From Sinohyriopsis cumingii (Eukaryota > Mollusca > Bivalvia > Unionida > Unionidae): 64,000 nucleotides of DNA. This document shows positions 1-64,000 of this stretch, piece after piece. The stretch is from positions 88,123,540 through 88,187,539 of the forward strand of contig CM068839.1 in the NCBI GenBank assembly GCA_028554795.2. Direction: 5' to 3'. Position numbers and translations under genes: made by a program. Each line of letters begins with the position of its first letter. The first letter of the stretch is position 1. The notes beneath the pieces are model-generated. The model was not told where the DNA came from and made no database searches. It saw only the letters and a list, made by a program, of their open reading frames with translations.

Positions 1-268
1 CCTTCCTCCCAGCAGAGACAAAGTAGCTCATGCAGTGGCTGAAGGAATGTTTGTTTCCCACGTTCGATAGCTTCGGGCGGGATGATGTCACTACCTGGTG
101 CTTTGTCGTTTGGGAGGGAGTCGATTGCTTTGCTGAGCTCCTCTAAGGTGGGCACTTTGTCGAGCTCATCCATGGTGGGCAGTTTTTATGCTGCTAGGGG
201 CCGCATCGGTGACTGACATTTCTTGGGAGTATAGCTCTAGGTAGTGTTCCACCCATCTGGCCATCTGT
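1..268. repeat. Partial unit 0 (end of module B)
   Basis: This is the last 268 bases of a unit whose start lies left of the window. It corresponds to 3792-4059 of unit 1 and ends at the B/A junction. It contains only the minus-strand LINE linker/RT remnant of module B. Confidence 0.95.
1..268 (-). pseudogene. LINE RT-B remnant, unit 0 (partial)
   Basis: Minus-strand remnant holding the start of the RT region: the NDKAPGSD-like block and the CWEEG-like block, plus upstream linker codons including VTDA. It corresponds to 3792-4059. The rest of the fragment lies outside the window. Confidence 0.85.
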
Positions 269-666
269 CATACTTAATGCAAAATAATGGTGAAAGACAA
301 ACGTTAATTCAAATAAAGCATCGCACACATACACACGAATGCGACAAGTGTATACAGACATGATGTCTTCCGTCGTCATACTATATACACCGGCTAATCA
401 ACAATAACTACTTAAAAGTGTTTAATTCAATTTTTAAATTCACAAAAAATGTGAGAAATACAATAAAACTCAAGAAATCTTTATTTGTTGGTATTCCGCA
501 GCGTAACAAATGGAACGTAACGCCCAGTGTAATTTCGACAATTTAGAACAAATCTTCATATGCGACAAAAAGATTTCAAAGAAACTATATATGTAATCTT
601 TACTGGTTCGATCTACAAGTAAATAACTCCAGGATTCAGTTTATGGTGTACATTTCAAAAGGGAAA
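269..666. other. AT-rich non-coding leader of module A, origin unknown
   Basis: About 400 bp with no convincing coding frame and no similarity to the LINE portion that I can recognise. It has a short CA-rich patch (ACACATACACACGAATGC) near 325-342 and several AATAAA motifs, which are expected by chance in such AT-rich DNA. The equivalent stretch opens every A and B module (2670-3066 in B of unit 1). Confidence 0.7.
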
Positions 667-1058
667 TGGGATGAAATTATCTCGAAGTAATTGTAAGCAA
701 AGTGTACTAAAAGATTACATAGCTCGCCTCTTTGAAGTAATTATAAACAATGTAATAAACGAGTATGTATCTCAACTATTTGATGTAATTGAAACCAGAG
801 TATTAAAGCCGAGTAAATATCTCAACTCGTTGAAGTAACTGTATAACTGTAAAAAGAGTAATAAATAAGTATATATCTCAATTCTCTGAAGTAATTGTAA
901 CCAAAATACAATAAATGATTACATAGCTCATCTCTTCAAGGTAATTGTAACTAGTCTAATAAACTATTACATATCTCAGCTCTTCCAAGCAATTGTTAAC
1001 AAAATGTAATAAATAACAGCTTAGATGACCTCTTCGATGCATTTAATAGTCTTCAGTT
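667..1058. repeat. Degenerate minisatellite in module A, about 8 copies of 48-56 bp
   Basis: A GTAATTGTAA-like motif recurs at 687, 737, 785, 835, 891, 941, 990 and 1039, giving spacings of 50, 48, 50, 56, 50, 49 and 49 bp. Each copy has the order GTAATTGTAACCAAA, an ATAAA-rich part, a TTACATA/GTATGTA part, then CTCATCTCTT-like pyrimidines leading to the next GTAA. The 56-bp spacing comes from a local extra GTATAACTGTA-like stretch. The copies are well diverged from each other but are repeated almost unchanged in every unit, so this level predates the 3.79-kb amplification. Confidence 0.88.
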
Positions 1059-1071
1059 TACATAATAAAAA

Positions 1072-2069
1072 CTAATTATCATGCAGGTCAATGGTCTTGG
1101 TGAGTTCAATGAACATCATGTAGAGTGGTTGACCTTGCTCTGTGTTCTTCTCTTGGAGTTGTCGTATGGAAAAGATCATGTCTGTCGTCGACCTGCCTGC
1201 TTTAAAGCCGCACTGGGATTCCAGGTGCACACGGTCCGCCAGCAACTGCAGCCTGTTGAGTATAATGCGAGAATACACTTTGCCAACGATGCTCAGAAGC
1301 GAGATCCCTCTGTAATTATTACAGTTACTGAGGTCGCCATTGTTTTTGTAAACGGTATCTCGCGCATATCTTGGAGGACCGCTCCTTTCCTCCCAGCAGA
1401 GACAAAGTAGCTCATGCAGCAGCTGAAGCAATGTTGGTTTCCCACGTTCGATAGCTTTGGGCGGGATGCTGTCACTACATGGTGCTTTGTCGTTTGGGAC
1501 GGAGTCGATTGCTTTGTTGAGCTCCTCTAAGGTGGGCACTTTGTGGAGCTCCTCTATGGTGGGCAGTTTTTATGCTGCTAGAGCTGCATCGGTGACTGAC
1601 ATTTCTTGGGAGCATAGCTCTGAGTAGTGTTCCACCCATCTGGCCATCTGTTGCTCGCAGTCAGTGATCTCCTCTCCCGTCAGAGATTTCTGGCGGACGA
1701 TCCCTTTCACCATAGGGCCTAGAGCCTTCTTGATATCACAGTACATACCTTGGATGTTTCCGGATTCGGCACTGCGCTGGAGTCCTTCACATAGTTGTTA
1801 CCAGTACTCGTTCGCGCACTGTCTAGCGATGTGTTGGGTGTTGCTTCGAGCGCTTCTGAGATCAGCAAGCATCCGTTCATTAGGGCATTTTTTGTAAGCT
1901 TTGAAGGCTTTTCATTTGTCTTCGATTATTGGTTCTATCCTTGATAGATGTGCGCTGAACTAGTGCCAAACGTGGCCATGGCTGTGCTGTAGATGACACC
2001 CTTCATGGCGCTCCACATGGCTGTGGCATCGTGATCTGGCAGGTCTTGGAGTGCCTGGTCCAGGGCTAG
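1072..2069 (-). pseudogene. LINE reverse-transcriptase fragment RT-A, unit 1 (pre-RT linker to motif A)
   Basis: A dead piece of a non-LTR retrotransposon polyprotein, read right to left. Bases 2069-1950 give a linker resembling the segment between endonuclease and RT (ALDQALQDLPDHD, then YSTAMATFG). A stop interrupts at EYW. Bases 1791-1570 read open for 73 codons (SGNIQGMY, IKKALGP, TGEEITD, QQMARWVEHY), ending at a TAA at 1570-1572. Bases 1539-1072 read open for 155 codons. In that piece, residues 16-26 are NDKAPCSDSIP (RT motif 0), 64-82 contain YKNNGD and NNYRGISLL (motif 1), 108-118 are SQCGFKAGRST (motif 2), and 143-151 are FIELTKTID (motif A). Glu145 replaces the catalytic Asp. The frame then leaves homology and stops. 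Endonuclease, YxDD box, thumb and 3' UTR are missing. Its apparent first codon is GTG, so it is not a real start. The superfamily is certain; the LINE clade is not assigned. Confidence 0.93.
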
Positions 2070-2669
2070 TATGAGAATACAAGAGTATATCACAATTATG
2101 CTCATGCAGCTCTGAGATTTTTTCAGAGACGTACGAAAATTCAATCAAAATCCAATTAAACATTTTATAGTTTCATTTGTATTAAATGTTCTAATTCGAG
2201 GTTATTAAAAGCTTATTACATGAAAAAACTGCACAATTTTGCAGGTGCCACATTTTACTTAAATAAAAACAGACACCATGAAAAAGGAAAAATCAGCCAA
2301 ATATATTCATATATTACCAAAACATAATGCAAATAGACTTTTTTTTTATATAAATTATTACAAAAAGTGCACATGTAAGATTTATAAATTCTTTGGTTGA
2401 TCTTTTTTATTCTGGCTGTGTCATACAGGAAATGTTTTTTAAACTAAACAGGCATTGGATATTGAAAATCAATTATAATCCTTATTATTGCAGCATATAT
2501 ACTTGTCAATTATTCTGGCCAAGCATTATGCTATAAGAATTGCATTGCATAAATGGAAATATATTGTACTGCAAACCCACTTCCTCACATCCGACCCTGT
2601 TATCTGTTCAATGAATGTATTCTACAAGTATCCTCAATGGCATGAATATGTGTTTTCTCTGAAATGTTT
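2070..2669. other. AT-rich part of module U, no recognised gene
   Basis: About 600 bp beyond the 5' limit of the recognisable LINE linker. It holds a short inverted repeat (2110-2115 with 2123-2128, CTCTGA/TCAGAG around a T-rich loop) and a nine-T run followed by ATATA (2339-2352) that varies in length between units. A plus-strand frame of 66 codons (2488-2688) opens only from TTG and shows no motif I recognise. It stays open in every unit, but the copies are too similar for that to mean much. Confidence 0.6.
2339..2352. repeat. Poly-T/AT slippage tract in module U
   Basis: Nine T followed by ATATA in most units. Units 10, 11, 13 and 14 have ten T and have lost an AT pair (net -1). Unit 16 has eight T. 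Unit 12 has an A within the run. This tract accounts for all the 3,790-bp units. Confidence 0.9.
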
Positions 2670-3066
2670 CAAACTTAATGCAAAATAATGGTGAAAGACA
2701 AACGTTAATTCAAATAAAGCATCACACACATACACACGAATGCAACAAGTGTATACAGACAGGATGTCTTTCTTTGTCATACTATTTACACCGATAAATC
2801 AACAATAACTACTTGAAAGTGTTTAATTCAATTTTTAAATTCGGAAAAATGTTAGAAATACAATAAAACTCAAGAAATATTTATTTGTTGGTATTCCGCA
2901 GCGTGACAAATGGAACGTAACGCTCAGTGTAATTTCGACAATTTAGAACAAATGTTCATAACCGACAAAAAGATTTCAAAGAAACTATATATGTAATCTT
3001 TACTGGTTCGATCTACAAGTAAATAGCTCCAGGATTCAGCTAATGGTGTACATTTCAAAAGGGAAA

Positions 3067-3457
3067 TGGGATGAAATTGTCTCGAAGTAATTGTAACCAA
3101 AGCGTACTAAAAGATTACATAGCTCGCCTCTTTGAAGTAATTATAAACAATGTAATAAACGAGTATGTATCTCAACAATTTGATGTAATTGTAACCAGAG
3201 TACTAAAGCCGAGTAAATATCTCAACTCGTTGAAGCAACTGTATAACTGTAACAAGAGTAATAAATGAGTATATATCTCAACTCTCTGAAGTAATTGTAA
3301 CCAAAGTACAATAAATGATTACATAGCTCATCTCTTAGAGGTAATTGTAACTAGTCTAATAAACTATTACATATCTCAGCTCTTCCAAGCAATTGTAAAC
3401 AAAATGTAATAAATAACAGCTTAGATGACCTCTTCGATGCATTTAATAGTCTTCAGT
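3067..3457. repeat. Degenerate minisatellite in module B
   Basis: Counterpart of 667-1058, offset by 2,400 bp, with the same eight-copy layout. One C in place of T (GAAGCAACTG near 3233) removes a stop found in A. This leaves a 65-codon plus-strand frame (3071-3268) made wholly of repeat sequence, which I do not regard as a gene. Confidence 0.88.
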
Positions 3458-3470
3458 TTACATAATAAAA

Positions 3471-4059
3471 CTAATTATCATGCAGGTCAAAGGTCTTGGT
3501 GAGGTCGATGAACATCATGTAGAGTGGTTGACCTTGCTCTGTGTTCTTCTCTTGGAGTTGTCGTATGGAAAATATCCTGTCTGTCGTCGACCTGCCTGCA
3601 TTAAAGCCGCACTGGGATTCCAGGTGCACACTGTCCGCCAGCAACTGCAGCCTGTTGAATATAATGCGGGCATACACGTTGCCAACGATGCTCAGAAGCG
3701 AGATCAAGCGAGATCCCTCTGTAATTATTACAGTCACTGAGGTCGCCATTGTTTTTGTAAACGGTATCTCGCGCATGTCTTGGGGTCCGCTCCTTCCTCC
3801 CAGCAGAGACAAAGTAGCTCATGCAGTGGCTGAAGGAATGTTTGTTTCCCACGTTCGATAGCTTCGGGCGGGATGATGTCACTACCTGGTGCTTTGTCGT
3901 TTGGGAGGGAGTCGATTGCTTTGCTGAGCTCCTCTAAGGTGGGCACTTTGTCGAGCTCATCCATGGTGGGCAGTTTTTATGCTGCTAGGGGCCGCATCGG
4001 TGACTGACATTTCTTGGGAGTATAGCTCTAGGTAGTGTTCCACCCATCTGGCCATCTGT
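3471..4059 (-). pseudogene. LINE reverse-transcriptase fragment RT-B, unit 1 (frameshifted)
   Basis: The shorter, more broken copy. Reading right to left, the frame MDELDKVPTLEELSK then NDKAPGSDIIPPEA runs to CWEEG. A loss of two bases near 3784 moves the RT reading to a second frame holding YKNNGD, SDCNNYRGIS. The 10-bp duplication at 3696-3715 moves it again to a third frame with ISLLSIVG, SQCGFNAGRST and FIDLTKTFD. Motif A keeps its Asp here, unlike RT-A. RT-B shares with RT-A the short internal deletion before YKNNGD and the same end after motif A (DLHDN, stop), so both derive from one insertion. Its 5' end is cut at the B/A junction within QMARW. Confidence 0.92.
3696..3715. repeat. Exact 10-bp tandem duplication (AAGCGAGATC x2) inside RT-B
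   Basis: Module A has a single AAGCGAGATC at the matching place (near 1297-1306). B has two perfect copies in every unit inspected. It shifts the RT reading frame and is a fixed marker of module B. Confidence 0.95.
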
Positions 4060-4071
4060 CATACTTAATGC
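4052..4071. other. B/A junction: breakpoint of the U deletion
   Basis: CCATCTGT (which in A is followed by TGCTCGC of U) is joined directly to CATACTTAATG (which in B is preceded by U). The CAT here matches CAA at the U/B border, with one substitution. The same junction recurs at every unit boundary (268/269, 4059/4060 and so on to 60920/60921), so all units descend from one deletion event. A 61-codon minus-strand frame crosses it, but it is only a chimera of linker and leader sequence. Confidence 0.92.
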
Positions 4072-4862
4072 AAAATAATGGTGAAAGACAAACGTTAATT
4101 CAAATAAAGCATCGCACACATACACACGAATGCGACAAGTGTATACAGACATGATGTCTTCCGTCGTCATACTATATACACCGGCTAATCAACAATAACT
4201 ACTTAAAAGTGTTTAATTCAATTTTTAAATTCACAAAAAATGTGAGAAATACAATAAAACTCAAGAAATCTTTATTTGTTCGTATTCCGCAGCGTAACAA
4301 ATGGAACGTAACGCCCAGTGTAATTTCGACAATTTAGAACAAATCTTCATATGCGACAAAAAGATTTCAAAGAAACTATATATGTAATCTTTACTGGTTC
4401 GATCTACAAGTAAATAACTCCAGGATTCAGTTTATGGTGTACATTTCAAAAGGGAAATGGGATGAAATTATCTCGAAGTAATTGTAAGCAAAGTGTACTA
4501 AAAGATTACATAGCTCGCCTCTTTGAAGTAATTATAAACAATGTAATAAACGAGTATGTATCTCAACTATTTGATGTAATTGAAACCAGAGTATTAAAGC
4601 CGAGTAAATATCTCAACTCGTTGAAGTAACTGTATAACTGTAAAAAGAGTAATAAATAAGTATATATCTCAATTCTCTGAAGTAATTGTAACCAAAATAC
4701 AATAAATGATTACATAGCTCATCTCTTCAAGGTAATTGTAACTAGTCTAATAAACTATTACATATCTCAGCTCTTCCAAGCAATTGTTAACAAAATGTAA
4801 TAAATAACAGCTTAGATGACCTCTTCGATGCATTTAATAGTCTTCAGTTTACATAATAAAAA

Positions 4863-5860
4863 CTAATTATCATGCAGGTCAATGGTCTTGGTGAGTTCAA
4901 TGAACATCATGTAGAGTGGTTGACCTTGCTCTGTGTTCTTCTCTTGGAGTTGTCGTATGGAAAAGATCATGTCTGTCGTCGACCTGCCTGCTTTAAAGCC
5001 GCACTGGGATTCCAGGTGCACACGGTCCGCCAGCAACTGCAGCCTGTTGAGTATAATGCGAGAATACACTTTGCCAACGATGCTCAGAAGCGAGATCCCT
5101 CTGTAATTATTACAGTTACTGAGGTCGCCATTGTTTTTGTAAACGGTATCTCGCGCATATCTTGGAGGACCGCTCCTTTCCTCCCAGCAGAGACAAAGTA
5201 GCTCATGCAGCAGCTGAAGCAATGTTGGTTTCCCACGTTCGATAGCTTTGGGCGGGATGCTGTCACTACATGGTGCTTTGTCGTTTGGGACGGAGTCGAT
5301 TGCTTTGTTGAGCTCCTCTAAGGTGGGCACTTTGTGGAGCTCCTCTATGGTGGGCAGTTTTTATGCTGCTAGAGCTGCATCGGTGACTGACATTTCTTGG
5401 GAGCATAGCTCTGAGTAGTGTTCCACCCATCTGGCCATCTGTTGCTCGCAGTCAGTGATCTCCTCTCCCGTCAGAGATTTCTGGCGGACGATCCCTTTCA
5501 CCATAGGGCCTAGAGCCTTCTTGATATCACAGTACATACCTTGGATGTTTCCGGATTCGGCACTGCGCTGGAGTCCTTCACATAGTTGTTACCAGTACTC
5601 GTTCGCGCACTGTCTAGCGATGTGTTGGGTGTTGCTTCGAGCGCTTCTGAGATCAGCAAGCATCCGTTCATTAGGGCATTTTTTGTAAGCTTTGAAGGCT
5701 TTTCATTTGTCTTCGATTATTGGTTCTATCCTTGATAGATGTGCGCTGAACTAGTGCCAAACGTGGCCATGGCTGTGCTGTAGATGACACCCTTCATGGC
5801 GCTCCACATGGCTGTGGCATCGTGATCTGGCAGGTCTTGGAGTGCCTGGTCCAGGGCTAG
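4863..5860 (-). pseudogene. LINE RT-A fragment, unit 2
   Basis: The 155-codon RT frame (4863-5330) is intact and identical in translation to unit 1. The linker carries the same two stops. Confidence 0.92.
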
Positions 5861-7261
5861 TATGAGAATACAAGAGTATATCACAATTATGCTCATGCAG
5901 CTCTGAGATTTTTTCAGAGACGTACGAAAATTCAATCAAAATCCAATTAAACATTTTATAGTTTAATTTGTATTAAATGTTCTAATTCGAGGTTATTAAA
6001 AGCTTATTACATGAATAAACTGCACAATTTTGCAGGTGCCACATTTTACTTAAATAAAAACAGACACCATGAAAAAGGAAAAATCAGCCAAATATATTCA
6101 TATATTACCAAAACATAATGCAAATAGCCTTTTTTTTTATATAAATTATTACAAAAAGTGCACATGTAAGATTTATAAATTCTTTGGTTGATCTTTTTTA
6201 TTCTGGCTGTGTCATACAGGAAATGTTTTTTAAACTAAACAGGCATTGGATATTGAAAATCAATTATAATCCTTATTATTGCAGCATATATACTTGTCAA
6301 TTATTCTGGCCAAGCATTATGCTATAAGAATTGCATTGCATAAATGGAAATATATTGTACTGCAAACCCACTTCCTCACATCCGACCCTGTTATCTGTTC
6401 AATGAATGTATTCTACAAGTATCCTCAATGGCATGAATATGTGTTTTCTCTGAAATGTTTCAAACTTAATGCAAAATAATGGTGAAAGACAAACGTTAAT
6501 TCAAATAAAGCATCACACACATACACACGAATGCAACAAGTGTATACAGACAGGATGTCTTTCTTTGTCATACTATTTACACCGATAAATCAACAATAAC
6601 TACTTGAAAGTGTTTAATTCAATTTTTAAATTCGGAAAAATGTTAGAAATACAATAAAACTCAAGAAATATTTATTTGTTGGTATTCCGCAGCGTGACAA
6701 ATGGAACGTAACGCTCAGTGTAATTTCGACAATTTAGAACAAATGTTCATAACCGACAAAAAGATTTCAAAGAAACTATATATGTAATCTTTACTGGTTC
6801 GATCTACAAGTAAATAGCTGCAGGATTCAGCTAATGGTGTACATTTCAAAAGGGAAATGGGATGAAATTGTCTCGAAGTAATTGTAACCAAAGCGTACTA
6901 AAAGATTACATAGCTCGCCTCTTTGAAGTAATTATAAACAATGTAATAAACGAGTATGTATCTCAACAATTTGATGTAATTGTAACCAGAGTACTAAAGC
7001 CGAGTAAATATCTCAACTCGTTGAAGCAACTGTATAACTGTAACAAGAGTAATAAATGAGTATATATCTCAACTCTCTGAAGTAATTGTAACCAAAGTAC
7101 AATAAATGATTACATAGCTCATCTCTTAGAGGTAATTGTAACTAGTCTAATAAACTATTACATATCTCAGCTCTTCCAAGCAATTGTAAACAAAATGTAA
7201 TAAATAACAGCTTAGATGACCTCTTCGATGCATTTAATAGTCTTCAGTTTACATAATAAAA

Positions 7262-7850
7262 CTAATTATCATGCAGGTCAAAGGTCTTGGTGAGGTCGAT
7301 GAACATCATGTAGAGTGGTTGACCTTGCTCTGTGTTCTTCTCTTGGAGTTGTCGTATGGAAAATATCCTGTCTGTCGTCGACCTGCCTGCATTAAAGCCG
7401 CACTGGGATTCCAGGTGCACACTGTCCGCCAGCAACTGCAGCCTGTTGAATATAATGCGGGCATACACGTTGCCAACGATGCTCAGAAGCGAGATCAAGC
7501 GAGATCCCTCTGTAATTATTACAGTCACTGAGGTCGCCATTGTTTTTGTAAACGGTATCTCGCGCATGTCTTGGGGTCCGCTCCTTCCTCCCAGCAGAGA
7601 CAAAGTAGCTCATGCAGTGGCTGAAGGAATGTTTGTTTCCCACGTTCGATAGCTTCGGGCGGGATGATGTCACTACCTGGTGCTTTGTCGTTTGGGAGGG
7701 AGTCGATTGCTTTGCTGAGCTCCTCTAAGGTGGGCACTTTGTCGAGCTCATCCATGGTGGGCAGTTTTTATGCTGCTAGGGGCCGCATCGGTGACTGACA
7801 TTTCTTGGGAGTATAGCTCTAGGTAGTGTTCCACCCATCTGGCCATCTGT
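7262..7850 (-). pseudogene. LINE RT-B fragment, unit 2
   Basis: Same lesions as RT-B of unit 1, including the 10-bp duplication (7487-7506). No private coding change seen. Confidence 0.9.
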
Positions 7851-8653
7851 CATACTTAATGCAAAATAATGGTGAAAGACAAACGTTAATTCAAATAAAG
7901 CATCGCACACATACACACGAATGCGACAAGTGTATACAGACATGATGTCTTCCGTCGTCATACTATATACACCGGCTAATCAACAATAACTACTTAAAAG
8001 TGTTTAATTCAATTTTTAAATTCACAAAAAATGTGAGAAATACAATAAAACTCAAGAAATCTTTATTTGTTGGTATTCCGCAGCGTAACAAATGGAACGT
8101 AACGCCCAGTGTAATTTCGACAATTTAGAACAAATCTTCATATGCGACAAAAAGATTTCAAAGAAACTATATATGTAATCTTTACTGGTTCGATCTACAA
8201 GTAAATAACTCCAGGATTCAGTTTATGGTGTACATTTCAAAAGGGAAATGGGATGAAATTATCTCGAAGTAATTGTAAGCAAAGTGTACTAAAAGATTAC
8301 ATAGCTCGCCTCTTTGAAGTAATTATAAACAATGTAATAAACGAGTATGTATCTCAACTATTTGATGTAATTGAAACCAGAGTATTAAAGCCGAGTAAAT
8401 ATCTCAACTCGTTGAAGTAACTGTATAACTGTAAAAAGAGTAATAAATAAGTATATATCTCAATTCTCTGAAGTAATTGTAACCAAAATACAATAAATGA
8501 TTACATAGCTCATCTCTTCAAGGTAATTGTAACTAGTCTAATAAACTATTACATATCTCAGCTCTTCCAAGCAATTGTTAACAAAATGTAATAAATAACA
8601 GCTTAGATGACCTCTTCGATGCATTTAATAGTCTTCAGTTTACATAATAAAAA

Positions 8654-9651
8654 CTAATTATCATGCAGGTCAATGGTCTTGGTGAGTTCAATGAACATCA
8701 TGTAGAGTGGTTGACCTTGCTCTGTGTTCTTCTCTTGGAGTTGTCGTATGGAAAAGATCATGTCTGTCGTCGACCTGCCTGCTTTAAAGCCGCACTGGGA
8801 TTCCAGGTGCACACGGTCCGCCAGCAACTGCAGCCTGTTGAGTATAATGCGAGAATACACTTTGCCAACGATGCTCAGAAGCGAGATCCCTCTGTAATTA
8901 TTACAGTTACTGAGGTCGCCATTGTTTTTGTAAACGGTATCTCGCGCATATCTTGGAGGACCGCTCCTTTCCTCCCAGCAGAGACAAAGTAGCTCATGCA
9001 GCAGCTGAAGCAATGTTGGTTTCCCACGTTCGATAGCTTTGGGCGGGATGCTGTCACTACATGGTGCTTTGTCGTTTGGGACGGAGTCGATTGCTTTGTT
9101 GAGCTCCTCTAAGGTGGGCACTTTGTGGAGCTCCTCTATGGTGGGCAGTTTTTATGCTGCTAGAGCTGCATCGGTGACTGACATTTCTTGGGAGCATAGC
9201 TCTGAGTAGTGTTCCACCCATCTGGCCATCTGTTGCTCGCAGTCAGTGATCTCCTCTCCCGTCAGAGATTTCTGGCGGACGATCCCTTTCACCATAGGGC
9301 CTAGAGCGTTCTTGATATCACAGTACATACCTTGGATGTTTCCGGATTCGGCACTGCGCTGGAGTCCTTCACATAGTTGTTACCAGTACTCGTTCGCGCA
9401 CTGTCTAGCGATGTGTTGGGTGTTGCTTCGTGCGCTTCTGAGATCAGCAAGCATCCGTTCATTAGGGCATTTTTTGTAAGCTTTGAAGGCTTTTCATTTG
9501 TCTTCGATTATTGGTTCTATCCTTGATAGATGTGCGCTGAACTAGTGCCAAACGTGGCCATGGCTGTGCTGTAGATGACACCCTTCATGGCGCTCCACAT
9601 GGCTGTGGCATCGTGATCTGGCAGGTCTTGGAGTGCCTGGTCCAGGGCTAG
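8654..9651 (-). pseudogene. LINE RT-A fragment, unit 3
   Basis: RT frame 8654-9121 unchanged. In the linker, C to G at 9308 alters one codon near IKKALGP, and T at 9431 lies in the region between the stops. Confidence 0.92.
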
Positions 9652-11052
9652 TATGAGAATACAAGAGTATATCACAATTATGCTCATGCAGCTCTGAGAT
9701 TTTTTCAGAGACGTACGAAAATTCAATCAAAATCCAATTAAACATTTTATAGTTTCATTTGTATTAAATGTTCTAATTCGAGGTTATTAAAAGCTTATTA
9801 CATGAATAAACTGCACAATTTTGCAGGTGCCACATTTTACTTAAATAAAAACAGACACCATGAAAAAGGAAAAATCAGCCAAATATATTCATATATTACC
9901 AAAACATAATGCAAATAGACTTTTTTTTTATATAAATTATTACAAAAAGTGCACATGTAAGATTTATAAATTCTTTGGTTGATCTTTTTTATTCTGGCTG
10001 TGTCATACAGGAAATGTTTTTTAAACTAAACAGGCATTGGATATTGAAAATCAATTATAATCCTTATTATTGCAGCATATATACTTGTCAATTATTCTGG
10101 CCAAGCATTATGCTATAAGAATTGCATTGCATAAATGGAAATATATTGTACTGCAAACCCACTTCCTCACATCCGACCCTGTTATCTGTTCAATGAATGT
10201 ATTCTACAAGTATCCTCAATGGCATGAATATGTGTTTTCTCTGAAATGTTTCAAACTTAATGCAAAATAATGGTGAAAGACAAACGTTAATTCAAATAAA
10301 GCATCACACACATACACACGAATGCAACAAGTGTATACAGACAGGATGTCTTTCTTTGTCATACTATTTACACCGATAAATCAACAATAACTACTTGAAA
10401 GTGTTTAATTCAATTTTTAAATTCGGAAAAATGTTAGAAATACAATAAAACTCAAGAAATATTTATTTGTTGGTATTCCGCAGCGTGACAAATGGAACGT
10501 AACGCTCAGTGTAATTTCGACAATTTAGAACAAATGTTCATAACCGACAAAAAGATTTCAAAGAAACTATATATGTAATCTTTACTGGTTCGATCTACAA
10601 GTAAATAGCTGCAGGATTCAGCTAATGGTGTACATTTCAAAAGGGAAATGGGATGAAATTGTCTCGAAGTAATTGTAACCAAAGCGTACTAAAAGATTAC
10701 ATAGCTCGCCTCTTTGAAGTAATTATAAACAATGTAATAAACGAGTATGTATCTCAACAATTTGATGTAATTGTAACCAGAGTACTAAAGCCGAGTAAAT
10801 ATCTCAACTCGTTGAAGCAACTGTATAACTGTAACAAGAGTAATAAATGAGTATATATCTCAACTCTCTGAAGTAATTGTAACCAAAGTACAATAAATGA
10901 TTACATAGCTCATCTCTTAGAGGTAATTGTAACTAGTCTAATAAACTATTACATATCTCAGCTCTTCCAAGCAATTGTAAACAAAATGTAATAAATAACA
11001 GCTTAGATGACCTCTTCGATGCATTTAATAGTCTTCAGTTTACATAATAAAA

Positions 11053-11641
11053 CTAATTATCATGCAGGTCAAAGGTCTTGGTGAGGTCGATGAACATCAT
11101 GTAGAGTGGTTGACCTTGCTCTGTGTTCTTCTCTTGGAGTTGTCGTATGGAAAATATCCTGTCTGTCGTCGACCTGCCTGCATTAAAGCCGCACTGGGAT
11201 TCCAGGTGCACACTGTCCGCCAGCAACTGCAGCCTGTTGAATATAATGCGGGCATACACGTTGCCAACGATGCTCAGAAGCGAGATCAAGCGAGATCCCT
11301 CTGTAATTATTACAGTCACTGAGGTCGCCATTGTTTTTGTAAACGGTATCTCGCGCATGTCTTGGGGTCCGCTCCTTCCTCCCAGCAGAGACAAAGTAGC
11401 TCATGCAGTGGCTGAAGGAATGTTTGTTTCCCACGTTCGATAGCTTCGGGCGGGATGATGTCACTACCTGGTGCTTTGTCGTTTGGGAGGGAGTCGATTG
11501 CTTTGCTGAGCTCCTCTAAGGTGGGCACTTTGTCGAGCTCATCCATGGTGGGCAGTTTTTATGCTGCTAGGGGCCGCATCGGTGACTGACATTTCTTGGG
11601 AGTATAGCTCTAGGTAGTGTTCCACCCATCTGGCCATCTGT
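11053..11641 (-). pseudogene. LINE RT-B fragment, unit 3
   Basis: Three-frame remnant with the 10-bp duplication at 11278-11297. No private change seen. Confidence 0.9.
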
Positions 11642-51350: not shown

Positions 51351-52750
51351 TATGAGAATACAAGAGTATATCACAATTATGCTCATGCAGCTCTGAGATT
51401 TTTTCAGAGACGTACGAAAATTCAATCAAAATCCAATTAAACATTTTATAATTTCATTTGTATTAAATGTTCTAATTCGAGGTTATTAAAAGCTTATTAC
51501 ATGAATAAACTGCACAATTTTGCAGGTGCCACATTTTACTTAAATAAAAACAGACACCATGAAAAAGGAAAAATCAGCCAAATATATTCATATATTACCA
51601 AAACATAATGCAAATAGACTTTTTTTTTTATAAATTATTACAAAAAGTGCACATGTAAGATTTATAAATTCTTTGGTTGATCTTTTTTATTCTGGCTGTG
51701 TCATACAGGAAATGTTTTTTAAACTAAACAGGCATTGGATATTGAAAATCAATTATAATCCTTATTATTGCAGCATATATACTTGTCAATTATTCTGGCC
51801 AAGCATTATGCTATAAGAATTGCATTGCATAAATGGAAATATATTGTACTGCAAACCCACTTCCTCACATCCGACCCTGTTATCTGTTCAATGAATGTAT
51901 TCTACAAGTATCCTCAATGGCATGAATATGTGTTTTCTCTGAAATGTTTCAAACTTAATGCAAAATAATGGTGAAAGACAAACGTTAATTCAAATAAAGC
52001 ATCACACACATACACACGAATGCAACAAGTGTATACAAACAGGATGTCTTTCTTTGTCATACTATTTCCACCGATAAATCAACAATAACTACTTGAAAGT
52101 GTTTTATTCAATTTTTAAATTCGGAAAAATGTTAGAAATACAATAAAACTCAAGAAATATTTATTTGTTGGTATTCCGCAGCGTGACAAATGGAACGTAA
52201 CGCTCAGTGTAATTTCGACAATTTAGAACAAATGTTCATAACCGACAAAAAGATTTCAAAGAAACTATATATGTAATCTTTACTGGTTCGATCTACAAGT
52301 AAATAGCTGCAGGATTCAGCTAATGGTGTACATTTCAAAAGGGAAATGGGATGAAATTGTCTCGAAGTAATTGTAACCAAAGCGTACTAAAAGATTACAT
52401 AGCTCGCCTCTTTGAAGTAATTATAAACAATGTAATAAACGAGTATGTATCTCAACAATTTGATGTAATTGTAACCAGAGTACTAAAGCCGAGTAAATAT
52501 CTCAACTCGTTGAAGCAACTGTATAACTGTAACAAGAGTAATAAATGAGTATATATCTCAACTCTCTGAAGTAATTGTAACCAAAGTACAATAAATGATT
52601 ACATAGCTCATCTCTTAGAGGTAATTGTAACTAGTCTAATAAACTATTACATATCTCAGCTCTTCCAAGCAATTGTAAACAAAATGTAATAAATAACAGC
52701 TTAGATGACCTCTTCGATGCATTTAATAGTCTTCAGTTTACATAATAAAA

Positions 52751-53339
52751 CTAATTATCATGCAGGTCAAAGGTCTTGGTGAGGTCGATGAACATCATGT
52801 AGAGTGGTTGACCTTGCTCTGTGTTCTTCTCTTGGAGTTGTCGTATGGAAAATATCCTGTCTGTCGTCGACCTGCCTGCATTAAAGCCGCACTGGGATTC
52901 CAGGTGCACACTGTCCGCCAGCAACTGCAGCCTGTTGAATATAATGCGGGCATACACGTTGCCAACGATGCTCAGAAGCGAGATCAAGCGAGATCCCTCT
53001 GTAATTATTACAGTCACTGAGGTCGCCATTGTTTTTGTAAACGGTATCTCGCGCATGTCTTGGGGTCCGCTCCTTCCTCCCAGCAGAGACAAAGTAGCTC
53101 ATGCAGTGGCTGAAGGAATGTTTGTTTCCCACGTTCGATAGCTTCGGGCGGGATGATGTCACTACCTGGTGCTTTGTCGTTTGGGAGGGAGTCGATTGCT
53201 TTGCTGAGCTCCTCTAAGGTGGGCACTTTGTCGAGCTCATCCATGGTGGGCAGTTTTTATGCTGCTAGGGGCCGCATCGGTGACTGACATTTCTTGGGAG
53301 TATAGCTCTAGGTAGTGTTCCACCCATCTGGCCATCTGT
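52751..53339 (-). pseudogene. LINE RT-B fragment, unit 14
   Basis: Three-frame remnant with the duplication at 52976-52995. Confidence 0.9.
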
Positions 53340-54142
53340 CATACTTAATGCAAAATAATGGTGAAAGACAAACGTTAATTCAAATAAAGCATCGCACACA
53401 TACACACGAATGCAACAAGTGTATACAGACATGATGTCTTCCGTCGTCATACTATATACACCGGCTAATCAACAATAACTACTTAAAAATGTTTAATTCA
53501 ATTTTTAAATTCACAAAAAATGTGAGAAATACAATAAAACTCAAGAAATCTTTATTTGTTGGTATTCCGCAGCGTAACAAATGGAACGTAACGCCCAGTG
53601 TAATTTCGACAATTTAGAACAAATCTTCATATGCGACAAAAAGATTTCAAAGAAACTATATATGTAATCTTTACTGGTTCGATCTACAAGTAAATAACTC
53701 CAGGATTCAGTTTATGGTGTACATTTCAAAAGGGAAATGGGATGAAATTATCTCGAAGTAATTGTAAGCAAAGTGTACTAAAAGATTACATAGCTCGCCT
53801 CTTTGAAGTAATTATAAACAATGTAATAAACGAGTATGTATCTCAACTATTTGATGTAATTGAAACCAGAGTATTAAAGCCGAGTAAATATCTCAACTCG
53901 TTGAAGTAACTGTATAACTGTAAAAAGAGTAATAAATAAGTATATATCTCAATTCTCTGAAGTAATTGTAACCAAAATACAATAAATGATTACATAGCTC
54001 ATCTCTTCAAGGTAATTGTAACTAGTCTAATAAACTATTACATATCTCAGCTCTTCCAAGCAATTGTTAACAAAATGTAATAAATAACAGCTTAGATGAC
54101 CTCTTCGATGCATTTAATAGTCTTCAGTTTACATAATAAAAA

Positions 54143-55140
54143 CTAATTATCATGCAGGTCAATGGTCTTGGTGAGTTCAATGAACATCATGTAGAGTGGT
54201 TGACCTTGCTCTGTGTTCTTCTCTTGGAGTTGTCGTATGGAAAAGATCATGTCTGTCGTCGACCTGCCTGCTTTAAAGCCGCACTGGGATTCCAGGTGCA
54301 CACGGTCCGCCAGCAACTGCAGCCTGTTGAGTATAATGCGAGAATACACTTTGCCAACGATGCTCAGAAGCGAGATCCCTCTGTAATTATTACAGTCACT
54401 GAGGTCGCCATTGTTTTTGTAAACGGTATCTCGCGCATATCTTGGAGGACCGCTCCTTTCCTCCCAGCAGAGACAAAGTAGCTCATGCAGCAGCTGAAGC
54501 AATGTTGGTTTCCCACGTTCGATAGCTTTGGGCGGGATGCTGTCACTACATGGTGCTTTGTCGTTTGGGACGGAGTCGATTGCTTTGTTGAGCTCCTCTA
54601 AGGTGGGCACTTTGTGGAGCTCCTCTATGGTGGGCAGTTTTTATGCTGCTAGGGCTGCATCGGTGACTGACATTTCTTGGGAGCATAGCTCTGAGTAGTG
54701 TTCCACCCATCTGGCCATCTGTTGCTCGCAGTCAGTGATCTCCTCTCCCGTCAGAGATTTCTGGCGGACGATCCCTTTCACCATAGGGCCTAGAGCCTTC
54801 TTGATATCACAGTACATACCTTGGATGTTTCCGGATTCGGCACTGCGCTGGAGTCCTTCACATAGTTGTTACCAGTACTCGTTCGCGCACTGTCTAGCGA
54901 TGTGTTGGGTGTTGCTTCGTGCGCTTCTGAGATCAGCAAGCATCCGTTCATTAGGGCATTTTTTGTAAGCTTTGAAGGCTTTTCATTTGTCTTCGATTAT
55001 TGGTTCTATCCTTGATAGATGTGCGCTGAACTAGTGCCAAACGTGGCCATGGCTGTGCTGTAGATGACACCCTTCATGGCGCTCCACATGGCTGTGGCAT
55101 CGTGATCTGGCAGGTCTTGGAGTGCCTGGTCCAGGGCTAG
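54143..55140 (-). pseudogene. LINE RT-A fragment, unit 15
   Basis: RT frame 54143-54610 is open, with Asp72. Confidence 0.92.
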
Positions 55141-56541
55141 TATGAGAATACAAGAGTATATCACAATTATGCTCATGCAGCTCTGAGATTTTTTCAGAGA
55201 CGTACGAAAATTCAATCAAAATCCAATTAAACATTTTATAATTTCATTTGTATTAAATGTTCTAATTCGAGGTTATTAAAAGCTTATTACATGAATAAAC
55301 TGCACAATTTTGCAGGTGCCACATTTTACTTAAATAAAAACAGACACCATGAAAAAGGAAAAATCAGCCAAATATATTCATATATTACCAAAACATAATG
55401 CAAATAGACTTTTTTTTTATATAAATTATTACAAAAAGTGCACATGTAAGATTTATAAATTCTTTGGTTGATCTTTTTTATTCTGGCTGTGTCATACAGG
55501 AAATGTTTTTTAAACTAAACAGGCATTGGATATTGAAAATCAATTATAATCCTTATTATTGCAGCATATATACTTGTCAATTATTCTGGCCAAGCATTAT
55601 GCTATAAGAATTGCATTGCATAAATGGAAATATATTGTACTGCAAACCCACTTCCTCACATCCGACCCTGTTATCTGTTCAATGAATGTATTCTACAAGT
55701 ATCCTCAATGGCATGAATATGTGTTTTCTCTGAAATGTTTCAAACTTAATGCAAAATAATGGTGAAAGACAAACGTTAATTCAAATAAAGCATCACACAC
55801 ATACACACGAATGCAACAAGTGTATACAGACAGGATGTCTTTCTTTGTCATACTATTTACACCGATAAATCAACAATAACTACTTGAAAGTGTTTTATTC
55901 AATTTTTAAATTCGGAAAAATGTTAGAAATACAATAAAACTCAAGAAATATTTATTTGTTGGTATTCCGCAGCGTGACAAATGGAACGTAACGCTCAGTG
56001 TAATTTTGACAATTTAGAACAAATGTTCATAACCGACAAAAAGATTTCAAAGAAACTATATATGTAATCTTTACTGGTTCGATCTACAAGTAAATAGCTG
56101 CAGGATTCAGCTAATGGTGTACATTTCAAAAGGGAAATGGGATGAAATTGTCTCGAAGTAATTGTAACCAAAGCGTACTAAAAGATTACATAGCTCGCCT
56201 CTTTGAAGTAATTATAAACAATGTAATAAACGAGTATGTATCTCAACAATTTGATGTAATTGTAACCAGAGTACTAAAGCCGAGTAAATATCTCAACTCG
56301 TTGAAGCAACTGTATAACTGTAAGAAGAGTAATAAATGAGTATATATCTCAACTCTCTGAAGTAATTGTAACCAAAGTACAATAAATGATTACATAGCTC
56401 ATCTCTTAGAGGTAATTGTAACTAGTCTAATAAACTATTACATATCTCAGCTCTTCCAAGCAATTGTAAACAAAATGTAATAAATAACAGCTTAGATGAC
56501 CTCTTCGATGCATTTAATAGTCTTCAGTTTACATAATAAAA

Positions 56542-57130
56542 CTAATTATCATGCAGGTCAAAGGTCTTGGTGAGGTCGATGAACATCATGTAGAGTGGTT
56601 GACCTTGCTCTGTGTTCTTCTCTTGGAGTTGTCGTATGGAAAATATCCTGTCTGTCGTCGACCTGCCTGCATTAAAGCCGCACTGGGATTCCAGGTGCAC
56701 ACTGTCCGCCAGCAACTGCAGCCTGTTGAATATAATGCGGGCATACACGTTGCCAACGATGCTCAGAAGCGAGATCAAGCGAGATCCCTCTGTAATTATT
56801 ACAGTCACTGAGGTCGCCATTGTTTTTGTAAACGGTATCTCGCGCATGTCTTGGGGTCCGCTCCTTCCTCCCAGCAGAGACAAAGTAGCTCATGCAGTGG
56901 CTGAAGGAATGTTTGTTTCCCACGTTCGATAGCTTCGGGCGGGATGATGTCACTACCTGGTGCTTTGTCGTTTGGGAGGGAGTCGATTGCTTTGCTGAGC
57001 TCCTCTAAGGTGGGCACTTTGTCGAGCTCATCCATGGTGGGCAGTTTTTATGCTGCTAGGGGCCGCATCGGTGACTGACATTTCTTGGGAGTATAGCTCT
57101 AGGTAGTGTTCCACCCATCTGGCCATCTGT
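56542..57130 (-). pseudogene. LINE RT-B fragment, unit 15
   Basis: Three-frame remnant with the duplication at 56767-56786. Confidence 0.9.
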
Positions 57131-57933
57131 CATACTTAATGCAAAATAATGGTGAAAGACAAACGTTAATTCAAATAAAGCATCGCACACATACACACGA
57201 ATGCAACAAGTGTATACAGACATGATGTCTTCCGTCGTCATACTATATACACCGGCTAATCAACAATAACTACTTAAAAGTGTTTAATTCAATTTTTAAA
57301 TTCACAAAAAATGTGAGAAATACAATAAAACTCAAGAAATCTTTATTTGTTGGTATTCCGCAGCGTAACAAATGGAACGTAACGCCCAGTGTAATTTCGA
57401 CAATTTAGAACAAATCTTCATATGCGACTAAAAGATTTCAAAGAAACTATATATGTAATCTTTACTGGTTCGATCTACAAGTAAATAACTCCAGGATTCA
57501 GTTTATGGTGTACATTTCAAAAGGGAAATGGGATGAAATTATCTCGAAGTAATTGTAAGCAAAGTGTACTAAAAGATTACATAGCTCGCCTCTTTGAAGT
57601 AATTATAAACAATGTAATAAACGAGTATGTATCTCAACTATTTGATGTAATTGAAACCAGAGTATTAAAGCCGAGTAAATATCTCAACTCGTTGAAGTAA
57701 CTGTATAACTGTAAAAAGAGTAATAAATAAGTATATATCTCAATTCTCTGAAGTAATTGTAACCAAAATACAATAAATGATTACATAGCTCATCTCTTCA
57801 AGGTAATTGTAACTAGTCTAATAAACTATTACATATCTCAGCTCTTCCAAGCAATTGTTAACAAAATGTAATAAATAACAGCTTAGATGACCTCTTCGAT
57901 GCATTTAATAGTCTTCAGTTTACATAATAAAAA

Positions 57934-58931
57934 CTAATTATCATGCAGGTCAATGGTCTTGGTGAGTTCAATGAACATCATGTAGAGTGGTTGACCTTGC
58001 TCTGTGTTCTTCTCTTGGAGTTGTCGTATGGAAAAGATCATGTCTGTCGTCGACCTGCCTGCTTTAAAGCCGCACTGGGATTCCAGGTGCACACGGTCCG
58101 CCAGCAACTGCAGCCTGTTGAGTATAATGCGAGAATACACTTTGCCAACGATGCTCAGAAGCGAGATCCCTCTGTAATTATTACAGTTACTGAGGTCGCC
58201 ATTGTTTTTGTAAACGGTATCTCGCGCATATCTTGGAGGACCGCTCCTTTCCTCCCAGCAGAGACAAAGTAGCTCATGCAGCAGCTGAAGCAATGTTGGT
58301 TTCCCACGTTCGATAGCTTTGGGCGGGATGCTGTCACTACATGGTGCTTTGTCGTTTGGGACGGAGTCGATTGCTTTGTTGAGCTCCTCTAAGGTGGGCA
58401 CTTTGTGGAGCTCCTCTATGGTGGGCAGTTTTTATGCTGCTAGGGCTGCATCGGTGACTGACATTTCTTGGGAGCATAGCTCTGAGTAGTGTTCCACCCA
58501 TCTGGCCATCTGTTGCTCGCAGTCAGTGATCTCCTCTCCCGTCAGAGATTTCTGGCGGACGATCCCTTTCACCATAGGGCCTAGAGCCTTCTTGATATCA
58601 CAGTACATACCTTGGATGTTTCCGGATTCGGCACTGCGCTGGAGTCCTTCACATAGTTGTTACCAGTACTCGTTCGCGCACTGTCTAGCGATGTGTTGGG
58701 TGTTGCTTCGTGCGCTTCTGAGATCAGCAAGCATCCGTTCATTAGGGCATTTTTTGTAAGCTTTGAAGGCTTTTCATTTGTCTTCGATTATTGGTTCTAT
58801 CCTTGATAGATGTGCGCTGAACTAGTGCCAAACGTGGCCATGGCTGTGCTGTAGATGACACCCTTCATGGCGCTCCACATGGCTGTGGCATCGTGATCTG
58901 GCAGGTCTTGGAGTGCCTGGTCCAGGGCTAG
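57934..58931 (-). pseudogene. LINE RT-A fragment, unit 16
   Basis: RT frame 57934-58401 is open and has reverted to Asn72, the form of units 1-10, between Asp72 neighbours. Confidence 0.92.
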
Positions 58932-60331
58932 TATGAGAATACAAGAGTATATCACAATTATGCTCATGCAGCTCTGAGATTTTTTCAGAGACGTACGAAA
59001 ATTCAATCAAAATCCAATTAAACATTTTATAATTTCATTTGTATTAAATGTTCTAATTCGAGGTTATTAAAAGCTTATTACATGAATAAACTGCACAATT
59101 TTGCAGGTGCCACATTTTACTTAAATAAAAACAGACACCATGAAAAAGGAAAAATCAGCCAAATATATTCATATATTACCAAAACATAATGCAAATAGAC
59201 TTTTTTTTATATAAATTATTACAAAAAGTGCACATGTAAGATTTATAAATTCTTTGGTTGATCTTTTTTATTCTGGCTGTGTCATACAGGAAATGTTTTT
59301 TAAACTAAACAGGCATTGGATATTGAAAATCAATTATAATCCTTATTATTGCAGCATATATACTTGTCAATTATTCTGGCCAAGCATTATGCTATAAGAA
59401 TTGCATTGCATAAATGGAAATATATTGTACTGCAAACCCACTTCCTCACATCCGACCCTGTTATCTGTTCAATGAATGTATTCTACAAGTATCCTCAATG
59501 GCATGAATATGTGTTTTCTCTGAAATGTTTCAAACTTAATGCAAAATAATGGTGAAAGACAAACGTTAATTCAAATAAAGCATCACACACATACACACGA
59601 ATGCAACAAGTGTATACAGACAGGATGTCTTTCTTTGTCATACTATTTACACCGATAAATCAACAATAACTACTTGAAAGTGTTTTATTCAATTTTTAAA
59701 TTCGGAAAAATGTTAGAAATACAATAAAACTCAAGAAATATTTATTTGTTGGTATTCCGCAGCGTGACAAATGGAACGTAACGCTCAGTGTAATTTCGAC
59801 AATTTAGAACAAATGTTCATAACCGACAAAAAGATTTCAAAGAAACTATATATGTAATCTTTACTGGTTCGATCTACAAGTAAATAGCTGCAGGATTCAG
59901 CTAATGGTGTACATTTCAAAAGGGAAATGAGATGAAATTGTCTCGAAGTAATTGTAACCAAAGCGTACTAAAAGATTACATAGCTCGCCTCTTTGAAGTA
60001 ATTATAAACAATGTAATAAACGAGTATGTATCTCAACAATTTGATGTAATTGTAACCAGAGTACTAAAGCCGAGTAAATATCTCAACTCGTTGAAGCAAC
60101 TGTATAACTGTAACAAGAGTAATAAATGAGTATATATCTCAACTCTCTGAAGTAATTGTAACCAAAGTACAATAAATGATTACATAGCTCATCTCTTAGA
60201 GGTAATTGTAACTAGTCTAATAAACTATTACATATCTCAGCTCTTCCAAGCAATTGTAAACAAAATGTAATAAATAACAGCTTAGATGACCTCTTCGATG
60301 CATTTAATAGTCTTCAGTTTACATAATAAAA

Positions 60332-60920
60332 CTAATTATCATGCAGGTCAAAGGTCTTGGTGAGGTCGATGAACATCATGTAGAGTGGTTGACCTTGCTC
60401 TGTGTTCTTCTCTTGGAGTTGTCGTATGGAAAATATCCTGTCTGTCGTCGACCTGCCTGCATTAAAGCCGCACTGGGATTCCAGGTGCACACTGTCCGCC
60501 AGCAACTGCAGCCTGTTGAATATAATGCGGGCATACACGTTGCCAACGATGCTCAGAAGCGAGATCAAGCGAGATCCCTCTGTAATTATTACAGTCACTG
60601 AGGTCGCCATTGTTTTTGTAAACGGTATCTCGCGCATGTCTTGGGGTCCGCTCCTTCCTCCCAGCAGAGACAAAGTAGCTCATGCAGTGGCTGAAGGAAT
60701 GTTTGTTTCCCACGTTCGATAGCTTCGGGCGGGATGATGTCACTACCTGGTGCTTTGTCGTTTGGGAGGGAGTCGATTGCTTTGCTGAGCTCCTCTAAGG
60801 TGGGCACTTTGTCGAGCTCATCCATGGTGGGCAGTTTTTATGCTGCTAGGGGCCGCATCGGTGACTGACATTTCTTGGGAGTATAGCTCTAGGTAGTGTT
60901 CCACCCATCTGGCCATCTGT
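60332..60920 (-). pseudogene. LINE RT-B fragment, unit 16
   Basis: Three-frame remnant with the duplication at 60557-60576. Confidence 0.9.
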
Positions 60921-63900
60921 CATACTTAATGCAAAATAATGGTGAAAGACAAACGTTAATTCAAATAAAGCATCGCACACATACACACGAATGCAACAAG
61001 TGTATACAGACATGATGTCTTCCGTCGTCATACTATATACACCGGCTAATCAACAATAACTACTTAAAAGTGTTTAATTCAATTTTTAAATTCACAAAAA
61101 ATGTGAGAAATACAATAAAACTCAAGAAATCTTTATTTGTTGGTATTCCGCAGCGTAACAAATGGAACGTAACGCCCAGTGTAATTTCGACAATTTAGAA
61201 CAAATCTTCATATGCGACAAAAAGATTTCAAAGAAACTATATATGTAATCTTTACTGGTTCGATCTACAAGTAAATAACTCCAGGATTCAGTTTATGGTG
61301 TACATTTCAAAAGGGAAATGGGATGAAATTATCTCGAAGTAATTGTAAGCAAAGTGTACTAAAAGATTACATAGCTCGCCTCTTTGAAGTAATTATAAAC
61401 AATGTAATAAACGAGTATGTATCTCAACTATTTGATGTAATTGAAACCAGAGTATTAAAGCCGAGTAAATATCTCAACTCGTTGAAGTAACTGTATAACT
61501 GTAAAAAGAGTAATAAATAAGTATATATCTCAATTCTCTGAAGTAATTGTAACCAAAATACAATAAATGATTACATAGCTCATCTCTTCAAGGTAATTGT
61601 AACTAGTCTAATAAACTATTACATATCTCAGCTCTTCCAAGCAATTGTTAACAAAATGTAATAAATAACAGCTTAGATGACCTCTTCGATGCATTTAATA
61701 GTCTTCAGTTTACATAATAAAAACTAATTATCATGCAGGTCAATGGTCTTGGTGAGTTCAATGAACATCATGTAGAGTGGTTGACCTTGCTCTGTGTTCT
61801 TCTCTTGGAGTTGTCGTATGGAAAAGATCATGTCTGTCGTCGACCTGCCTGCTTTAAAGCCGCACTGGGATTCCAGGTGCACACGGTCCGCCAGCAACTG
61901 CAGCCTGTTGAGTATAATGCGAGAATACACTTTGCCAACGATGCTCAGAAGCGAGATCCCTCTGTAATTATTACAGTCACTGAGGTCGCCATTGTTTTTG
62001 TAAACGGTATCTCGCGCATATCTTGGAGGACCGCTCCTTTCCTCCCAGCAGAGACAAAGTAGCTCATGCAGCAGCTGAAGCAATGTTGGTTTCCCACGTT
62101 CGATAGCTTTGGGCGGGATGCTGTCACTACATTGTGCTTTGTCGTTTGGGGCGGAGTCGATTGCTTTGTTGAGCTCCTCTAAGGTGGGCACTTTGTGGAG
62201 CTCCTCTATGGTGGGCAGTTTTTATGCTGCTAGGGCTGCATCGGTGACTGACATTTCTTGGGAGCATAGCTCTGAGTAGTGTTCCACCCATCTGGCCATC
62301 TGCTGCTCGCAGTCAGTGATCTCCTCTCCCGTCAGAGATTTCTGGCGGACGATCCCTTTCACCATAGGGCCTAGAGCCTTCTTGATATCACAGTACATAC
62401 CTTGGATGTTTCCGGATTCGGCACTGCGCTGGAGTCCTTCACATAGTTGTTACCAGTACTCGTTCGCGCACTGTCTAGCGATGTGTTGGGTGTTGCTTCG
62501 TGCGCTTCTGAGATCAGCAAGCATCCGTTCATTAGGGCATTTTTTGTAAGCTTTGAAGGCTTTTCATTTGTCTTCGATTATTGGTTCTATCCTTGATAGA
62601 TGTGCGCTGAACTAGTGCCAAACGTGGCCATGGCTGTGCTGTAGATGACACCCTTCATGGCGCTCCACATGGCTGTGGCATCGTGATCTGGCAGGTCTTG
62701 GAGTGCCTGGTCCAGGGCTAGTATGAGAATACAAGAGTATATCACAATTATGCTCATGCAGCTCTGAGATTTTTTCAGAGACGTACGAAAATTCAATCAA
62801 AATCCAATTAAACATTTTATAATTTCATTTGTATTAAATGTTCTAATTCGAGGTTATTAAAAGCTTATTACATGAATAAACTGCACAATTTTGCAGGTGC
62901 CACATTTTACTTAAATAAAAACAGACACCATGAAAAAGGAAAAATCAGCCAAATATATTCATATATTACCAAAACATAATGCAAATAGACTTTTTTTTTA
63001 TATAAATTATTACAAAAAGTGCACATGTAAGATTTATAAATTCTTTGGTTGATCTTTTTTATTCTGGCTGTGTCATACAGGAAATGTTTTTTAAACTAAA
63101 CAGGCATTGGATATTGAAAATCAATTATAATCCTTATTATTGCAGCATATATACTTGTCAATTATTCTGGCCAAGCATTATGCTATAAGAATTGCATTGC
63201 ATAAATGGAAATATATTGTACTGCAAACCCACTTCCTCACATCCGACCCTGTTATCTGTTCAATGAATGTATTCTACAAGTATCCTCAATGGCATGAATA
63301 TGTGTTTTCTCTGAAATGTTTCAAACTTAATGCAAAATAATGGTGAAAGACAAACGTTAATTCAAATAAAGCATCACACACATACACACGAATGCAACAA
63401 GTGTATACAGACAGGATGTCTTTCTTTGTCATACTATTTACACCGATAAATCAACAATAACTACTTGAAAGTGTTTTATTCAATTTTTAAATTCGGAAAA
63501 ATGTTAGAAATACAATAAAACTCAAGAAATATTTATTTGTTGGTATTCCGCAGCGTGACAAATGGAACGTAACGCTCAGTGTAATTTCGACAATTTAGAA
63601 CAAATGTTCATAACCGACAAAAAGATTTCAAAGAAACTATATATGTAATCTTTACTGGTTCGATCTACAAGTAAATAGCTGCAGGATTCAGCTAATGGTG
63701 TACATTTCAAAAGGGAAATGGGATGAAATTGTCTCGAAGTAATTGTAACCAAAGCGTACTAAAAGATTACATAGCTCGCCTCTTTGAAGTAATTATAAAC
63801 AATGTCATAAACGAGTATGTATCTCAACAATTTGATGTAATTGTAACCAGAGTACTAAAGCCGAGTAAATATCTCAACTCGTTGAAGCAACTGTATAACT

Positions 63901-64000
63901 GTAACAAGAGTAATAAATGAGTATATATCTCAACTCTCTGAAGTAATTGTAACCAAAGTACAATAAATGATTACATAGCTCATCTCTTAGAGGTAATTGT
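60921..64000. repeat. Megasatellite unit 17 (partial, 3,080 bp)
   Basis: Modules: A 60921-62303, U 62304-63321, B 63322 to the window edge, where the minisatellite is cut. Private changes: G to T at 62133 and A to G at 62151, both altering RT-A residues, and A to C at 63806. Confidence 0.96.
61724..62721 (-). pseudogene. LINE RT-A fragment, unit 17
   Basis: RT frame 61724-62191 is open. Two private changes sit in the motif 0 region: Val14 to Ala (62151) and Pro20 to Gln (62133, NDKAQ). Asp72 form. Confidence 0.92.

Follow-up and report, generated by a model that had tools for sequence, protein, structure and literature searches.

Megasatellites, or macrosatellites, are described in the part of PMC12771815 that deals with this size class as tandem arrays whose units are typically ~1–6 kb long, which extend over a few to hundreds of kb and usually occupy one or two loci. 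Transposable elements can supply such units. In the relevant passages of PMC2588610, a human megasatellite of LTR arrays (MaLR; MSTA/THE-1) has transposon units of ~3.5 kb organised in higher-order repeats with signs of unequal crossing-over, and the MaLR arrays tabled there comprise 4–25 units and reach up to 79.5 kb. LINE-related satellites named in PMC9659126 include the common cetacean satellite, related to the 3′ part of L1, the PROsat satellite of Phodopus, with a small L1 ORF2-like region, and the chicken HinfI satellite, with a partial ORF2 of CR1. Satellites of Lathyrus are likewise given a retrotransposon origin, from Ogre, in the corresponding text of PMC7004042.

The window, by which we mean the whole 64-kb stretch of DNA that was analysed, is a tandem array from end to end (Table 1). 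Its autocorrelation peaks lie at a lag of 3,791 bp and multiples thereof, and a 30-base anchor taken from the window start occurs 17 times at steps of 3,790–3,792 bp, for the last time at position 60653. As assembled, the array consists of 16 full units and 0.88 of unit 17 (60653–64000, 3,348 bp), without interruption; neither edge lies inside the window, and the span is at least 64 kb. With 16.88 copies of a unit of this length it falls within the unit sizes of megasatellites, and such a periodicity cannot be due to chance. The TRF program was run with a longest period of 500 bp and therefore did not call the 3.79-kb unit; it lists internal ~50-bp repeats in each unit. The first-pass annotation had proposed an unbroken head-to-tail array of megasatellite scale with a 3.79-kb period and with neither edge in view; the autocorrelation and the 17 anchor recurrences support the former, and the units running through the whole 64 kb support the latter.

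Table 1. Features of the array, in window coordinates (first copies, unless stated otherwise).
Feature	Position	Strand	Evidence or remark
Tandem array, 16.88 assembled dimeric units, 3,790–3,792 bp	1..64000	+	Anchor spacing and unit alignment
Unit starts, units 1–9	1, 3792, 7583, 11374, 15165, 18956, 22747, 26538, 30329		
Unit starts, units 10–17	34120, 37910, 41700, 45492, 49282, 53072, 56863, 60653		
Beta-to-alpha junction	262..279	+	17 in 17 units; abrupt end of LINE fragment here
Monomer alpha, long, 2,400 bp, first copy	269..2668	+	269–1651 aligns with beta; 1652–2668 alpha only
Six minisatellite repeats in alpha, spacing 48–56 bp	713..997	+	TRF and repeat spacing
Internal fragment of LINE ORF in alpha, pre-RT region to start of RT domain, limits approximate	1085..2072	−	RVT_1, tblastn
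String with stop codon in LINE frame	1558..1580	−	34 occurrences: 17 alpha, 17 beta
Alpha-only AT-rich segment	2073..2668	+	GC 0.29, CpG o/e 0.32, measured on 2066–2668
Alpha-to-beta junction	2666..2680	+	17 in 17 units
Monomer beta, short, 1,391 bp, first complete copy	2669..4059	+	94.5% identical to 269–1651
Six minisatellite repeats in beta, spacing 48–56 bp	3113..3397	+	TRF and repeat spacing
Shorter copy of LINE fragment in beta	3483..4058	−	RVT_1 E 4e-8, gap table, tblastn

When the majority unit was compared with itself, positions 268–1651 aligned with 2669–4059, extending into the next unit, at 93.9% identity. The 3.79-kb unit is a higher-order repeat of two monomers that are unequal in length, a long alpha and a short beta, the latter consisting in unit coordinates of 2669–3791 plus 1–268 of the following unit. 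In a two-sequence alignment of alpha and beta from the majority unit, 1,303 of 1,379 gap-free columns were identical (94.5%); transitions number 40 and transversions 36, and a further 16 columns contain gaps. Beta is without the 1,017 bp that correspond to alpha 1652–2668. Each junction is found 17 times, as is the uninterrupted interior of alpha, in strict alternation; no alpha–alpha or beta–beta neighbours exist among the 17 units of the window, and single monomers were not encountered in its 64 kb, either in arrays or at a locus of their own. Diverged monomers (94.5%) are thus combined into near-identical dimers (99.55–99.97%), and monomer order is fixed, as the junctions alternate in 17 of 17 units. 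The 3.79-kb unit of the earlier description is correct as a period, but it had been missed that this unit is a dimer, its two monomers sharing 94.5% identity. Repetition in this array is nested at three levels, of ~50 bp, 1.39/2.4 kb and 3.79 kb, which differ in age.

Both monomers carry a piece of a LINE. The Pfam RVT_1 profile was matched in alpha (E 6e-8, profile positions 5–77 of 205) and in beta (E 4e-8, positions 7–80 of 205), and Pfam searches of four other frames gave no match. In tblastn comparisons with the 210 distinct relatives listed (see below), the fragment extended over about 2072–1085 in alpha, where individual matches reached 2088 and 985, and over about 267–3483 in beta. By these extents about 0.99 + 0.58 kb of the 3.79 kb, or about 41% of the unit, is LINE sequence, and with RVT_1 in both monomers the array is a satellite whose monomers are homologous to a non-LTR retrotransposon. 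The coding-derived LINE fragment noted at first pass is therefore present, as the RVT_1 matches attest, and the label ‘LINE-derived’ is apt for that 41% but not for the AT-rich remainder with its minisatellite. This non-LINE ~60% of the unit has a GC content of 0.29–0.31, and no homology was found for it in the collections searched, which are poor in eukaryote DNA. The CpG o/e is 0.65–0.67 in the LINE parts, 0.96–1.05 in the parts with the minisatellite and 0.32 in 2066–2668, which contains four CpGs only; this low value beside the ~1.0 of the minisatellite part looks as if the two had separate histories before joining.

An active LINE would need an intact ORF with endonuclease, full RT and catalytic motif; the present one is an internal fragment with stops, frame breaks and a partial RVT_1 only, and is not active. 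The alpha fragment contains in-frame stops and changes frame near 1960, with 1968–2072 in a different frame, and the beta copy differs from alpha by frame-shifting gaps of 10, 2 and 1 bp. A ten-base tandem duplication at unit positions 3697–3715 shifts the frame of the beta LINE copy at 16 of the 16 such positions within the window. Stop-free frames in the window reach 165 aa at most. One stop is common to all 34 of the alpha and beta copies, so the LINE had died before the two monomers separated, and selection for a LINE protein was therefore not behind the amplification. Beyond the stop-bearing string, a loss of four residues is visible in the LINE copies of both monomers. We infer that the array is non-coding and that its LINE content is passive.

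Relatives of the fragment were collected by protein search, which returned 342 for a 165-aa query and 415 for a 295-aa query; the best 120 of each were listed, 210 of them distinct and most without an organism name. The named relatives among the matches listed include those from Branchiostoma, Octopus, Penaeus, Hyalella, Tuta, Apostichopus, Acropora, Montipora, Littorina, Chelydra, Serrasalmus and Dissostichus, a range of hosts which suggests that this LINE group is widespread in animals. Judged by these relatives, the array is eukaryotic and probably comes from an animal. One record, P0108, bears the name of the bacterium Acinetobacter baumannii and is presumably contamination. Among solved structures there were six matches with E up to 1, the best being 8c8j, an ‘RNA-directed DNA polymerase’ (5e-6), followed by four sequences of L1 ORF2p (about 1e-5) and, at E 0.8, by an R2 protein. 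Two relatives among the best 120 of 415 for the 295-aa query, P0142 and P0155, carry PF14529, an APE-type endonuclease domain, so that the source LINE was likely of APE type, the domain being one of the relatives. Searches for relatives of the RT fragment gave 17 pattern-matching stretches in viral contigs and 196 in bacterial and archaeal genomes, none of which was confirmed, and one DNA pattern applied to viral contigs and another applied to genome contigs matched nothing in either. The long relative P0169 continues past the end of the LINE fragment in the unit, into a FADD motif. Of the 210 relatives fetched, 107 give an unbroken alignment across position 1651/1652; the remaining 103 include many that are short or begin further on. 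Because relatives run across this point, alpha keeps the natural order of the LINE and beta is the truncated form.

Taken together, we are confident in reading the megasatellite as a two-monomer higher-order repeat from a duplicated dead-LINE locus, amplified as a dimer and homogenised by unequal exchange and conversion. In the founding locus, a LINE fragment that was by then dead and truncated internally would have adjoined AT-rich minisatellite DNA. This locus would then have been duplicated, with one copy ~1 kb shorter than the other, and the copies would have diverged by ~5.5% before amplification took the 3.79-kb pair as its unit. The pair would have been spread and homogenised by unequal crossing-over together with gene conversion, both in register with the dimer. 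There is an even chance that a 2.4-kb monomer already stood in tandem, that one copy was then shortened by 1,017 bp and that the long–short pair was amplified; in the alternative order, amplification of the whole 3.79 kb followed the duplication of a 1.39-kb part of a single locus. Exactly the junctions observed result from both orders, and with the LINE uninterrupted in alpha, beta is truncated under either; the beta-to-alpha junction, by eye almost without microhomology, suits them both. With no like monomers side by side in its 17 units, the window does not separate them.

Variation among the units bears on how the dimer was spread. Among the 3,793 columns of the unit alignment, 42 vary, 29 as singletons and 13 with variants shared between units. 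Beyond column 3,300 the comparison includes just the 16 complete units, and no column is variable there. Within columns 1–3,300, any two units have 1–15 differences (mean 8.6, or 0.26%), as expected of the near-identical units first reported, and adjacent units have a mean of 6.25. The recent homogenisation that had also been proposed is seen between dimers, at this mean of 0.26%, but not between alpha and beta within the dimer, where the difference is ~20 times larger. Similarity of units declines with distance along the array (Mantel r 0.58, with none of 9,999 permutations as high), and recombinant haplotypes are present, all four combinations being found at 29 of 78 pairs among the 13 informative columns, or at 22 of 55 pairs when two columns at a homopolymer are left out. 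Part of these counts may stem from recurrent mutation or from errors of assembly. Distance decay and four-haplotype pairs would be expected from unequal crossing-over and conversion among units.

By eye, variants at columns 344, 1328, 1584, 2172 and 2827 set apart two loose blocks, units 1–9 and units 10–17, with mosaic units among them, which suggests separate waves of amplification. Variable substitution sites number 26 in the duplicated part and 12 outside it. At the former, the base of the other monomer equals the rarer allele at 5 of 26 sites, the commoner allele at 19 and neither at 2. We do not claim gene conversion between alpha and beta on this basis, since the five matches of the rarer allele are more simply explained if the other monomer has retained the ancestral base; these alleles are best read as an ancestral state surviving in some units.

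Two further readings are unlikely. Amplification through extrachromosomal circles, by rolling circle and re-insertion in place of unequal crossing-over, would by our reasoning also be expected to give identical dimers in register, but the gradual distance decay and the mosaic haplotypes are a better fit to repeated local exchange, and unequal exchange appears to be the mechanism of the array. It is similarly improbable that the array is a functional macrosatellite kept by selection, either centromeric or regulatory like human D4Z4 and DXZ4. Size, head-to-tail order and homogeneity do resemble D4Z4 and DXZ4 as portrayed in portions of PMC12771815 and PMC2588610, respectively, but there is no long open frame, and homogenisation alone accounts for the identity of the units. 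Nor were functional elements matched within the window, in which no tRNA was found by ARAGORN (bacterial code), no Rfam family at gathering score and no CENP-B box, telomere repeat or G4 with simple patterns, although these absences are weak evidence. The array is probably heterochromatic. A more specific proposal, that it might be a chromosome-specific centromeric or sex-chromosome macrosatellite whose founding monomer was formed from a captured dead LINE fragment and the minisatellite and whose two-monomer order is actively kept in register, strikes us as quite doubtful. Expansion of a short or single-copy dimer by the assembler is very improbable, since the very high identity of the units and the 29 of 42 variable columns that are singletons, and could be read errors, are offset by 13 columns with variants common to at least two units, by the clustering of like units and by unit lengths varying by 1–2 bp, a pattern that copying of a single unit would not produce.

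The array offers a clear snapshot of satellite formation from transposon debris. For many of its variants the sister monomer gives the polarity, which would make exchange and homogenisation measurable along a real array. It is moderately instructive and leaves current views unchanged. The first-pass annotation called units of this type uncommon, which is fair, but they are not exceptional, as kilobase units bearing retrotransposon fragments are documented in parts of PMC2588610 and PMC9659126. The closest likeness is to the human MaLR megasatellite, which, as far as its treatment in PMC2588610 goes, shares kilobase units derived from transposable elements, higher-order repeats and signs of unequal exchange. 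The human array, however, is built of LTR fragments in six-monomer repeats, lies on many chromosomes and was studied by FISH, whereas the present one has a LINE and two monomers (PMC2588610, same passages). The human 5.4-kb Mer33 and ~6-kb Acro arrays, in the extracts of PMC2588610 that cover them, also have kilobase units in which LINE portions are joined to other DNA, but they involve other elements at mapped locations, with an inversion in the Acro array. The cetacean, PROsat and HinfI satellites are similar in that their monomers derive from or resemble parts of LINEs, so far as they are characterised in PMC9659126. Compared with these three, the present unit is dimeric and only ~41% LINE, a comparison in which monomer sizes play no part. 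The Lathyrus satellites and the potato satellite Sobo, which is reportedly linked to a retrotransposon, stem from plant LTR retrotransposons, in contrast to the LINE found here. Set beside these systems, the array belongs to a known kind, the megasatellite derived from a transposable element with higher-order repeats, and is an ordinary member of it rather than new in kind. Particular to it are the two monomers, their 1-kb difference in length and the dead LINE fragment in both.
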